A DNA stretch of 64,000 nt. It comes from Candidatus Bathyarchaeota archaeon (GTDB taxonomy: Archaea; Thermoproteota; Bathyarchaeia; Bathyarchaeales; Bathycorpusculaceae). The stretch is taken from contig JAGTQZ010000006.1 of the NCBI GenBank assembly GCA_018396705.1, forward strand, positions 62,001-126,000. The letters run 5' to 3'. Shown here in pieces: positions 6,600 to 10,974 of this stretch. How positions within the stretch are numbered: position 1 is the first letter of the stretch; each line of letters begins with the position of its first letter. The position numbers and the translations under genes were made by a program. Below the pieces are notes generated by a model. The model saw only the letters and a program-made list of their open reading frames with translations. It was not told where the DNA came from and ran no database searches.

Positions 6600-7094
6600 T
6601 TAACGTTTCACAATTTTTTGGGCTACACCGCTTCTATACAAAGCTTCAAGCAAGCTGAAACCCAGAATATCGATTGCTATAACAGAGCCGATGAAAACGC
6701 CAAGTAATCCAACCTCTATTGGCATGCTGAGAAGCACAGCTAAGTAACTTCCAACAATCAGCGTGACAATGACTGTCTCTGCCAGACAAGACGAAAATCT
6801 ACGGAAAACGCTTTTTCCACCGATGTGCCATGCCAAGATGCATGCAATAAAGTTTGCGATGGCTCCGCCTGCAACATCAACGATGCCCAAACTACTATAA
6901 AAATTTGCAATAAAACAGCCGAGACTTGTCCCAAAGGCCACTGGCAAGCCTAAAACGGCAGCAAAGGGTAAAAGTGCATCGGCTACTCTCACCTGAAAAA
7001 CTTCAAAGCTTATGGGTGCTAAGAAAACCACTGCAGCTGCGTAAAGTGCCGCAAAAACTGCTGTTAAAACCACATCTTTACTTTCAAACTTCAA
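6600..7094 (-). CDS. queT: QueT-type (COG4708/DUF988) membrane transporter component
   Basis: Integral membrane protein of 164 residues with five or six hydrophobic segments. It resembles QueT, the substrate-binding (S) component of an ECF transporter for queuosine or archaeosine precursors. Family-like stretches are the Q-V-R-V-A-D-A-L-L-P segment near residue 35 and the G-x-V-D-V-A-G-G-A-I-A-N region near 72-85. The start is TTG at 7094, supported by a strong AGGGAGGTG ribosome-binding site six bases upstream. In archaea the likely cargo would be a preQ0/preQ1-type base for archaeosine in tRNA; this is inferred from the family. No ECF A or T component is in the window. The leader folds into a riboswitch-like structure (separate entry). 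Confidence 0.75.
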   Translation of the reverse strand: MKFESKDVVLTAVFAALYAAAVVFLAPISFEVFQVRVADALLPFAAVLGLPVAFGTSLGCFIANFYSSLGIVDVAGGAIANFIACILAWHIGGKSVFRRFSSCLAETVIVTLIVGSYLAVLLSMPIEVGLLGVFIGSVIAIDILGFSLLEALYRSGVAQKIVKR

Positions 7095-7099
7095 TTTTT

Positions 7100-7181
7100 C
7101 ACCTCCCTACACCGGGGTTTTTATGGCGGAACGGGTGGGAGGGCCCACTCACCCGCCAATAAACAGCAAAAACTGTAGGGA
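7100..7181 (-). promoter_or_regulatory. Structured leader RNA of the QueT gene, candidate riboswitch
   Basis: Read on the minus strand, an 8-bp closing stem pairs 7174-7181 with 7104-7111. It encloses a GC-rich hairpin region: 7153-7157 with 7125-7129, plus an inner 4-bp stem of 7144-7147 with 7136-7139. An A-rich single strand (about 7119-7124) and a C-rich strand (about 7115-7118) follow. The 3' half of the closing stem includes part of the AGGGAGGTG ribosome-binding site, so closing the stem would mask initiation. QueT/COG4708 genes in bacteria are known to carry preQ1 riboswitches. I cannot match this RNA to a known preQ1 class by eye. Confidence 0.55.
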
Positions 7182-7216
7182 TCATAAAAACTATTCTAAG
7201 ATCGCGCTCCATTAAG

Positions 7217-7804: not shown

Positions 7805-8677
7805 CTAAAACAAGAACAACTGGATGATGACGGCAATGAATGTTGAAGCTGCGACCAGAGATGATATTGCTGTGACTACTTGCCGCTCGGTCATGGGACG
7901 ATTGTACGTGATAAGCGTTATCAAACTTCGCCTATGATTAGAAACAAGCTTCACACCATCAAAAGAAACACTAGCCTTCGTCCGGAAAAAGAAGTAATTC
8001 ACCATAATCAGCGAAGAGTTGAAAATATATGGCAGAATCGAAATAAGTAAACACCATTTTAGGTCGGAGATTATTGCAAAGGCTGCCAGTGTCATTCCAA
8101 TGGTGAAGGAGCCGGTATTGCCAACAAAAATTTTGCCTCGAAAATTGAAAAACGCAAGTGACAGCCAAACAGCTAAGGGAACTGTTAATAGGATAGCGTT
8201 CTGACCCGACAGAACCATAAGCCCTATCAAAACGATGGCGGGACAAATGGTTTCTAACCCGTTTAAACCACCTAGCTGGTTAACGGTGTTAGTCGTTACA
8301 GTCACAATTAACGGAATCAGTATAATGTAGTAGTAAATCCCGAAGTTTACGGTTCCAACTATTGGGAGAGTTATAGCGGTGCGCACATAGGGCAAACGAT
8401 AGGCCAAAGCCACAAGGGGGATTGCTGCTATCAAAGGGAAAAAAGCTTTATAGCGCCAACGTAGATCCATCCAATCGTCAAGCAAACCCATGAAGCCGCC
8501 GAACAAAATGCAAACGGCTAACGTTAAAGCCTTATTAATGTTGCCGGACACATTACCTTCGATGAATAAGTGTAGCAGAAAGAGGTAGAGGGAGCTTGCT
8601 ATCACATAAAAGACGCCTAAACCAGTCGGAACAAGCGGCCTATTCGGCTTATGATAATCCGGAACCTTTGGAAACAA
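7805..8677 (-). CDS. GPT/MraY-like polyprenyl-phosphate sugar-1-phosphate transferase, N-terminally short
   Basis: Membrane enzyme of glycosyltransferase family 4 that would load a sugar-1-phosphate (probably HexNAc) onto dolichyl phosphate, the first step of N-glycan lipid assembly. Family motifs present are the H-K-P region (residues 9-11), LLDDWMDLRWRYK near 65-77, N-x-V-N-Q-L-G-G-L-N-G near 130-140, GKIFVGNTGS near 180-189 and N-H-R-R-S near 247. About eight or nine membrane helices remain. The usual first helix before the H-K-P motif is missing: TTG 8677 with a GAGGG site is the only good start and an in-frame stop lies 12 codons upstream. It sits directly downstream of AglB on the same strand. 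Donor sugar is not determinable. Confidence 0.85.
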   Translation of the reverse strand: MFPKVPDYHKPNRPLVPTGLGVFYVIASSLYLFLLHLFIEGNVSGNINKALTLAVCILFGGFMGLLDDWMDLRWRYKAFFPLIAAIPLVALAYRLPYVRTAITLPIVGTVNFGIYYYIILIPLIVTVTTNTVNQLGGLNGLETICPAIVLIGLMVLSGQNAILLTVPLAVWLSLAFFNFRGKIFVGNTGSFTIGMTLAAFAIISDLKWCLLISILPYIFNSSLIMVNYFFFRTKASVSFDGVKLVSNHRRSLITLITYNRPMTERQVVTAISSLVAASTFIAVIIQLFLF

Positions 8678-8691
8678 GTTTCTAGCCCTCT

Positions 8692-10974
8692 CTACTGTTC
8701 TGAAGGATAGTTAATCTTATAGAGGCAGACGAGAGGAACCACGCCACCGTATTTTGTTCCATCGTTATCAAGTCCAGCAATGTATGCCTCGCTAAAGTAT
8801 TGAAGTTGAATCGTCGGGGAGGAACCGCCTTTCTGCACTTGCATCCAACGCTCCATGGCATAACGCATCAATTTATAGATTGTGGCATTTTGTCCCATAG
8901 ACGCTGGACTCGTAGAGTCCCCACTGTCGTAGTATCCATTATTATTTGAGTCATGCCAATGAGCCCCCAAGGTGTAGTTTCCAAACATCTGCCGGATTTC
9001 TTCGAGATCGCCGGTCCACATTTCATTTTCAGAGATCAAACCTTGATTTATGAAGCGGTCACGAGCTTTTCCAGATATGGCGGCCATCCAAACCCATTTT
9101 CCTTCATCGCCGCCTGCATTGGCGAACACGACGTTTCTTGTCTGAGTATCGTAATAGATGGTCACATAAACCAAGATGTACTCAGCTTTGTACCATTTTA
9201 ATACCTTAACTGCTTGCGTTTCATTACTCATGAATATGAAGCCGATATTTTGTATTTGAGTTCCGTTTACTGTTGCATTGTCTGCAAGTGTTGTAACATT
9301 TCCCAGTATTGTCAGCCAATACCCATAGTCCCACCAGCTACACACAACAGTCGCAGAATTTAACCGCGTTCTAGTCCAATAGAGCAGGTTTATCCACTCC
9401 TGCACCGGTTCACTTGGAATCAATGAAAGGCTTCCAGATGATATTGTTGTTGGAGTGTCAACTTGCCTGTAAATCCTCCGCATCGACAAAGGAAAGGCAA
9501 CATTAGACATTAGGATTATGAATATCATGAATATAGCTGCGCCGCTGAACTCTTTTCCAACACGTTCGAGCCCATACTTTTTCTTTATACTTATTTTGGG
9601 AGGCTCTTTCCACAACGCCACAAAAGGCTTCAATAGTCCATTAACCCCAACACTTGCCAAAAGGCTGAACGCCGGAGCCATGAGCACAAGCAACCGCACC
9701 ATAGAACAAGCAAAATAAAGTGACGTTAAGCCGAAAAGCAAGAGAAACAAGTTTTTATTGTTCAAGTTTCCGAAAACAAAGAACAAACTTACCACAAAGA
9801 AAAATATTCCAACCCCAAGATCGTAATAAATGGAGCCCCAAGCGGAGATACGATGTTCAGCCACAGACTCGTAAAGCGGAGATTCTGTCCGAGTAAAAGG
9901 ATTAACCACTGAAAGAAACTTACCAGTTATAGCTTGTACGTGGCCAAGCCGCCATAGGATAACGAAACCCACAACAATCAAAGCTAGAAAAACTATTAAG
10001 GCTAAAATTTTCCATTTTTGCGTTGGCAACGCGTTTACAATTTCAGCAAGAAAAAGTAAACTGAAAACTCCAGCAACCGCAACTATAACCGTGGACAAGA
10101 GATAATTTGGTGAAAGATATGGAACGTTTATGGCAATAAACAATCCTAGGCCAAAGGTTATGCTGTAAGCTAAGAGAAGCCGCTGTGTATATCTCTTCAT
10201 GACCAACAATACAAAGGCAAAAAGTGCAGTAAGGCCTATGGGGTAGTAGGCAGCACCCCAGCTAGCACAGAAATACCCTAAAATCGCTCCGGATGCAACA
10301 GCATATTTTAAAGTTGAATTTATTGGACGATCTTCTTCAATCGCCCTTAAAAATAGAAAAACAAAAACTATGAGGGCCGGTATCCCGACGGTTTCATCAT
10401 CAAAAAAACCTAGGGAAGTGCGTTGAATATAGGATGGATGCAAAGCCAAGAAAAGCGCTGCTAAAAGGCCTACAGGCTTGCCGCCTATATCCTTACCCAA
10501 GAAGTATATGGCGAGGCAGGCCAGCATTCCCATTATGGCTGGGAAAAGTGAACAGAAGCTCATGAGATCTATACCTACGCCGAGCATTGAGACTATCTTA
10601 TACAGAAAGGCAGCTGTAAGAGGAAGACCAGGATAGGCGCCTCTTGCAACGTTATATCCCTGGGGATACCAACGTTGATAGTCTATCCACGGGTTTGGCC
10701 ACGCCCATGCAATAAAACCGTTTTTGAATATATATTCCGTAAAGCGATACTGAAAATATGGGTCGAATTCCGACAGCAAAAGAGTTGATTTTCCAGTAGC
10801 TGGATCTATTTCCCATCGCATGGGGAACAACCTTGCAACGAAAGCTATCAAAAGAATTAGCACCAACGCCGCAAATGTCAAAACTGATGTGTGGCGCACT
10901 TTTGGGCGAAGTTTTCCGATATTTCGGAGGACGTTAAGAAAGTTTTCCTTGGTAAAGGCGTTCTTGAGGTTCAT
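8692..10974 (-). CDS. aglB: Dolichyl-phosphooligosaccharide-protein glycotransferase (STT3/AglB)
   Basis: Catalytic oligosaccharyltransferase that moves lipid-linked glycan to Asn of N-x-S/T sequons outside the membrane. The first loop has the E-F-D-P-Y-F-Q-Y-R acidic motif (near residue 70), and a second acidic motif F-F-D-D-E-T occurs near 195. About thirteen helices precede a C-terminal globular domain with the WWDYG signature near 545. The length of 760 residues is usual for archaeal AglB. It is followed 14 bases later by the GPT-like gene. Together with the OST3/6-like protein at 13805-14224 and the sequon-rich surface protein at the left edge, it indicates active N-glycosylation. Confidence 0.96.
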   Translation of the reverse strand: MNLKNAFTKENFLNVLRNIGKLRPKVRHTSVLTFAALVLILLIAFVARLFPMRWEIDPATGKSTLLLSEFDPYFQYRFTEYIFKNGFIAWAWPNPWIDYQRWYPQGYNVARGAYPGLPLTAAFLYKIVSMLGVGIDLMSFCSLFPAIMGMLACLAIYFLGKDIGGKPVGLLAALFLALHPSYIQRTSLGFFDDETVGIPALIVFVFLFLRAIEEDRPINSTLKYAVASGAILGYFCASWGAAYYPIGLTALFAFVLLVMKRYTQRLLLAYSITFGLGLFIAINVPYLSPNYLLSTVIVAVAGVFSLLFLAEIVNALPTQKWKILALIVFLALIVVGFVILWRLGHVQAITGKFLSVVNPFTRTESPLYESVAEHRISAWGSIYYDLGVGIFFFVVSLFFVFGNLNNKNLFLLLFGLTSLYFACSMVRLLVLMAPAFSLLASVGVNGLLKPFVALWKEPPKISIKKKYGLERVGKEFSGAAIFMIFIILMSNVAFPLSMRRIYRQVDTPTTISSGSLSLIPSEPVQEWINLLYWTRTRLNSATVVCSWWDYGYWLTILGNVTTLADNATVNGTQIQNIGFIFMSNETQAVKVLKWYKAEYILVYVTIYYDTQTRNVVFANAGGDEGKWVWMAAISGKARDRFINQGLISENEMWTGDLEEIRQMFGNYTLGAHWHDSNNNGYYDSGDSTSPASMGQNATIYKLMRYAMERWMQVQKGGSSPTIQLQYFSEAYIAGLDNDGTKYGGVVPLVCLYKINYPSEQ

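Follow-up and report, generated by a model that had tools for sequence, protein, structure and literature searches.

A conserved pseudoknot before archaeal queT genes as a candidate translational riboswitch for a 7-deazaguanine

Is the short leader in front of an archaeal queT gene a riboswitch and, if so, which ligand would it sense? Natural riboswitches are, to our knowledge, well charted in bacteria and sparse in archaea, and the question is raised here by one locus within a stretch of 64,000 nucleotides (the whole stretch of DNA that was analyzed, hereafter the window), for which the nearest contig bearing a name belongs to a Candidatus Bathyarchaeota genome (74% identity). The minus-strand ORF at 6600–7094, with a TTG start codon at 7094–7092, was found to encode QueT/COG4708 (PF06177, E 1.9e-25; 90.2 bits against a curated cut-off of 33.7), which bears out the sequence-only reading that the leader lies directly 5' of such a gene. 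QueT serves an ECF importer as its S component, the subunit that binds the substrate. The genome of the window carries one copy of the leader type described below. One TGT and an EcfT-like subunit were detected in this genome but no clear QueC (top PF06508 score of 27.7 bits vs. about 200 for the true QueC of relatives), which is indicative that import of a precursor is probably needed; a 7-deazaguanine is probably taken up from outside and then inserted into tRNA. Farther upstream on the same strand (7805–10974, minus), we noticed genes for a glycosyl transferase of family 4 (MraY-like) and an STT3/AglB oligosaccharyl transferase, which appear to be ordinary N-glycosylation genes.

Comparison of the leaders shows a conserved RNA of about 60 nt, at 7157–7102 on the minus strand of the window, which folds as an H-type pseudoknot and which we term the type 1 leader. 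Its consensus before 107 distinct genes reads GGCGG GUGAGUGG(n) CCUCC(C)AC CCG UU CCGCC (A-rich) AAACCC CGG ..GUA GG(G)AGG UG. The first helix, S1 (GGCGG/CCGCC), is formed by a 5' strand at 7153–7157 (98.9% of cells paired; three of five pairs changed in both partners) and the covarying 3' strand at 7125–7129, all features of the element being on the minus strand. The loop L1, GUGAGUGGG (7144–7152), has a near-invariant start, GU..G, in our alignment of 95 distinct type 1 sequences (A1), and its GUGGG can pair with CCCAC (7139–7135) to give an alternative hairpin, P2. In the second helix, S2, the second half of the loop pairs with the tail through the steps CCG/CGG, AC/GU, and CUCC(C)/(G)GGAG, usually with one bulged nucleotide before the GU and an A after it; in other words, the loop strand CCUCCCAC-CCG pairs with CGG-(U)GU(A)-GGGAGG, and the latter contains the Shine-Dalgarno (SD) sequence. 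The 5' strand of S2 in the window, CCUCCCACCCG (7132–7142), comprises an anti-SD and the nearly invariant CCG, and its pairing with 7114–7102 is supported by covariation, while the 3' strand, CGGUGUAGGGAGG (7102–7114), holds the SD GGGAGG (7107–7102) and is supported by the own-tail pairing test given below. L2 is a UU (7130–7131) that is invariant in A1, and L3, AUAAAAACCC (7115–7124), is A-rich and then C-rich, with little or no variation across A1 in its AAA and its Cs. Because the SD lies within S2, folding and ribosome binding must be in competition. A pseudoknot had been anticipated from the A-rich and C-rich tails; it exists according to this comparison, but it is the hairpin loop that pairs with the SD region, and not simply one of those tails with the other. 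Two other pairings were considered and rejected, namely CCG/CGG alone, which is too short and makes up only the beginning of the longer S2 helix, and CGGGU/ACCCG, which is broken in two leaders (L083 and L100), the compensating change there being in S1. A subtype (L103, L194, and L195) has the tail CCCCAAAA in place of CCCCGG and an S2 that lacks the CCG/CGG step (e.g., GCUCCGU/ACGGAGC).

Covariance modelling across queT leaders, from which the sequence-only reading had expected compensatory changes in an 8-bp closing stem, did reveal such changes, but in S1 and in the loop-to-SD helix S2. Within A1, 95.7% of cells pair and six pairs show changes on both sides; the covariation score was higher than in 500 of 500 shuffles, and control structures slid along the alignment paired in only 37–58%. 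When compensatory changes were counted by parsimony on a QueT protein tree (FastTree), double changes numbered 10 at the S2 core pair 26/68, 7 at pair 25/69, and 5 in S1. Pairs 26/68 and 25/69 are coupled because both record a joint lengthening of the strands (CCUCC/GGAGG to CCUCCC/GGGAGG), and this one kind of event makes up much of the S2 covariation, which we count against the riboswitch explanation. The loops scored 8.49 in pairing with their own tails vs. 7.73 (sd 0.09) with swapped tails, a value reached in 0 of 2,000 permutations (members of other classes included). The whole S2 helix is replaced in distant relatives, as UUUCCGAC/GUCGGAAA in L192, UGCUCCGU/ACGGAGCG in L195, UCAUCUCC/GGAGAUGA in L104, and UACCUCC/GGAGGUA in L067. 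S1 varies as GGCGC/GCGCC, CGCGG/CCGCG, AGCGG/CCGCU, UGCGG/CCGCA, and GACGG/CCGUC, the first of which occurs in six leaders of three families (L083 and L100 of f1 and, separately, L168, L175, L186, and L188 of f15 and f16). The P2 hairpin (GUGGG/CCCAC) is 91.4% paired with changes on both sides at just one pair. This weaker covariation and its near-absence in relatives with short loops (L093, L116) led us to reject P2 as the sole structure, and both also count against the riboswitch explanation, in which P2 would be the ON hairpin.

To estimate the distribution of the element, a covariance model of the type 1 leader (R1) was searched in 163 genomes of the same order (Bathyarchaeia) and in 398 genomes sampled across the phylum. 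The element was found in 126 of the 163 order genomes, of which 137 have QueT homologues, and in 81 of the 398 sampled genomes. Of these 81, 7 belong to other orders of the class and 20 lie outside the class; the match in G256, which is among the 20, is probably due to chance. Weak matches in G256, G133, and a second one in G126 (E 0.004–0.009) were not counted as support, and a pattern scan of viral contigs for the element gave no match. Of the 398 sampled genomes, 186 have QueT, so many queT genes (e.g., those of f18, f25, f29, and f38) do not carry a type 1 element. The proteins encoded directly 3' of the leader (n = 134) were predominantly QueT (130, E up to 0.001), with two QueC and two membrane proteins. 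Type 1 leaders precede queT-queC operons at five loci (L040, L044, L125, L129, and L130) and a queT-queC-queT operon at L045, whereas at L089 and L099 the order is leader, QueC, and then QueT; in most QueC-bearing genomes, QueC lies beside the element. The QueT paralogues of such operons (L040, L044, L045, L089, L125, L129, and L130) could have CDG or preQ0 as substrate. We also observed the type 1 leader before related polytopic membrane proteins of about 232 aa (L168:1563–2258 and L188:4066–4767), for which no Pfam, NCBIfam, or PDB match was found and, for the L168 protein, the structure prediction was of too low confidence to use (pLDDT 45). Their genomes (G441 and G489) gave no QueT match. 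Possibly these proteins are an unrecognised importer of the same ligand; the placement of the leader before a protein that matches no family is counted against the riboswitch explanation.

Could the element be an archaeal member of a known preQ1 riboswitch class? No Rfam family reached its gathering score in the window, preQ1-I, -II, and -III included; at E up to 10, the leader had only sub-threshold, chance-level matches to unrelated families, and further type 1 loci had no match (E up to 10, part of them at E up to 1). Searching with the preQ1-I, -II, and -III models themselves gave no match in the window, the leader, or related loci, as the suggestion of a new class would have it. In the review that describes them, the three preQ1 classes comprise five motifs, all of them bacterial, archaea are nowhere mentioned, and preQ1 riboswitches control queT genes of bacteria, as the sequence-only reading had stated for COG4708 (PMC11625349). 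The type 1 leader resembles preQ1-I (RF00522) in its H-type pseudoknot with an A-rich L3, read here from covariation and not from 3D data, and the translational versions of preQ1-I likewise have the SD in the second helix and occur before queT, and also before queCDEF (PMC11625349). However, preQ1-I has a short second helix, whereas S2 is about 10–11 bp with a bulge, and class I needs an AC or UC ahead of the 3' strand of P1, whose C is the base that sets ligand specificity (PMC11625349), whereas UU occupies this place in 95 of 95 A1 sequences; type 1 further differs in an L1 of typically at least 9 nt, in being archaeal, and in having no Rfam match. In common with preQ1-II (RF01054, formerly COG4708 RNA), the element lies before COG4708/queT and has the SD fully paired in the pseudoknot helix, but preQ1-II has a P4 hairpin in L3 and a four-helix HLout fold, whereas the type 1 L3 is mostly 8–14 nt with no hairpin; preQ1-II is known only from Bacillota (PMC11625349), and the RF01054 model does not match type 1. 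Similarly, preQ1-III (RF02680) occurs before queT and pairs the SD at a distance, but it is bacterial with a larger HLout fold, and RF02680 does not match type 1. The absence from Rfam together with these class features is indicative of an element that would work like a preQ1 translational riboswitch while being a member of none of the three classes. A literature search, with most subscription journals outside its scope, returned no published account of such an element.

We propose, with a probability of roughly 0.6, that the type 1 leader is a new class of translational OFF riboswitch that senses a 7-deazaguanine, preQ0 being the most likely one. The leader has the makings of a riboswitch-type element, i.e., a conserved structure, compensatory changes, and an expression platform, and the earlier suggestion of a candidate new riboswitch for preQ0 or preQ1 before an archaeal queT gene finds good support in the conservation, the covariation, and the neighbouring genes as far as sequence comparison reaches. 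When the ligand is scarce, the anti-SD strand would be free or paired locally with L1 (GUGGG/CCCAC), leaving the SD open so that QueT is made. When plentiful, the ligand would bind around the S1/S2 junction, where the conserved GU..G of L1, UU of L2, and AAACCC of L3 lie, and would lock the loop strand CCUCCCACCCG onto CGG..GGGAGG; with the SD buried, synthesis of QueT, or of QueT and QueC where they form an operon, would stop.

The identity of the ligand is judged from the neighbouring genes only, by which preQ0 is the probable ligand, preQ1 or another 7-deazapurine a doubtful one, and the lack of any small ligand more doubtful still. In archaea, TGT inserts preQ0 as a step toward archaeosine. 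We favor preQ0 because archaeosine is built on this base (PMC5372724), which QueC makes, and because the host has a TGT but no clear QueC. Conceivably, the same RNA and mechanism could serve preQ1 or another 7-deazapurine (CDG, archaeosine base, or queuine) as the natural ligand, a reading to which we assign a minor share of the probability. It draws on bacterial queT, which is under preQ1 riboswitches and whose product has been called a transporter of preQ1 (PMC11625349), a description that counts against preQ0, and on the queT-queC operons, which would also suit import of CDG, the substrate of QueC. Nevertheless, archaea use preQ0 for archaeosine and queuosine synthesis is not possible in them (PMC5372724), and the TGT of a host with no clear QueC argues in the same direction. 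The fuller claim, of a preQ0-selective class that evolved separately from the bacterial preQ1 riboswitches and is the first natural riboswitch of the archaeosine pathway in archaea, is tentative, and we put it at slightly under even odds. The candidate has over 100 members, stands in a clear gene context, and forms a pseudoknot that covaries; it offers a testable answer to how archaea may sense archaeosine precursors and would be an independent small-RNA solution to 7-deazaguanine recognition. Our analysis also suggests that many Bathyarchaeia rely on neighbours for salvage of the 7-deazaguanine base.

Leaders with SD pairing can also be bound by proteins, and an archaeal TGT or another RNA-binding factor might stabilise the pseudoknot and block the SD with no metabolite riboswitch being involved. 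We consider such a protein-binding leader improbable, as three features resemble known metabolite riboswitches: the unpaired loops of the 60-nt pseudoknot hardly vary, the gene association is limited to a transporter and its pathway, and in sister lineages the same gene is preceded by a pseudoknot of a quite different, preQ1-I-like kind. It is very unlikely that the pseudoknot simply holds translation at a constant low level or acts as a temperature sensor by melting; pairing of the SD alone would give such an effect, but the sequence conservation of L1, L2, and L3 exceeds what pairing needs and the association with one pathway would be hard to explain. As for the 8-bp closing stem UCCCUACA/UGUAGGGA around the GC-rich hairpin, which the sequence-only reading had taken as the regulator, it does appear when the window sequence is folded to minimum energy, but we give it hardly any credence, because pairing with the tail gave no signal over 135 leaders (upstream 45 nt with own tail 6.37 vs. 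6.25 with the tails of others; 159 of 2,000 permutations at or above), so that it is not a conserved structure, because it is missing by inspection from most same-genus relatives, and because its 5' arm sits between a TATA-like box and the expected transcription start. The folding energy of the gene strand is modest (z = −2.0; 9 of 200 shuffles fold as well), and that of the opposite strand gave z = −3.8.

The TATA-like box, TTTTTATG (7183–7190, minus), is a probable promoter 33 nt before S1, and across the 135 leaders such words show a sharp peak in position, at −32 to −35 from S1 (top at −34). Archaeal transcription normally starts about 22–27 nt after the TATA box. With this spacing, the start would fall a few nucleotides before S1, and the arm at 7181–7174 (minus), which is outside the conserved element and between the box and the predicted start, is probably promoter DNA that is not transcribed into RNA. 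The entire 5' UTR would be the pseudoknot and the SD spacer.

Three further leader types were observed before archaeal queT genes, none with an Rfam match. Type 2, GUAGUUUCCGUAnAUAACCUACCUUAAAAAACCCGG, precedes queT in sister Bathyarchaeia (L015, L016, L018, L020, L021, L022, and L024) and has a 5-bp P1 (GGUAG/CUACC), UU after the 5' strand and AC before the 3' strand of P1, an A6 tract, a CCG that pairs with CGG at the SD (P2), and a variable hairpin that is usually 5' of the leader. It shares with type 1 the gene, the pairing of a loop CCG with a tail CGG next to the SD, and an A-rich L3, but its layout is preQ1-I-like and the two show no sequence relation beyond CCG/CGG; type 2 is a possible first archaeal preQ1-I-like riboswitch. 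Weak R2 matches outside these seven queT leaders (E above 1e-4) had no queT downstream where inspected and were set aside as chance. If all these leaders are switches, those of archaeal queT hold at least four unrelated architectures (types 1–4) for one pathway, and the bacterial preQ1 classes likewise show one leader architecture replacing another before the same gene. Type 3 belongs to queT of family f5 (L014 and L023), reads ACCCCAGAUGUGGC(A/G)GGCC...GGUAGCCGAAGGGGAAAUCAACCAGCC, and ends in a hairpin in which the SD is paired (CCCCCGC/GCGGGGG). Type 4 occurs before queT in three families outside the order (L230, L231, and L242) and reads GGCGGACGAGGnAGGUAyCCCGCCGUUACUC...GAGGCGA..GUGA...GAGAAAUUCUCCCUCCC, and the SD that follows GAGAAAUUCUCCCUCCC could pair with CCCUCC.
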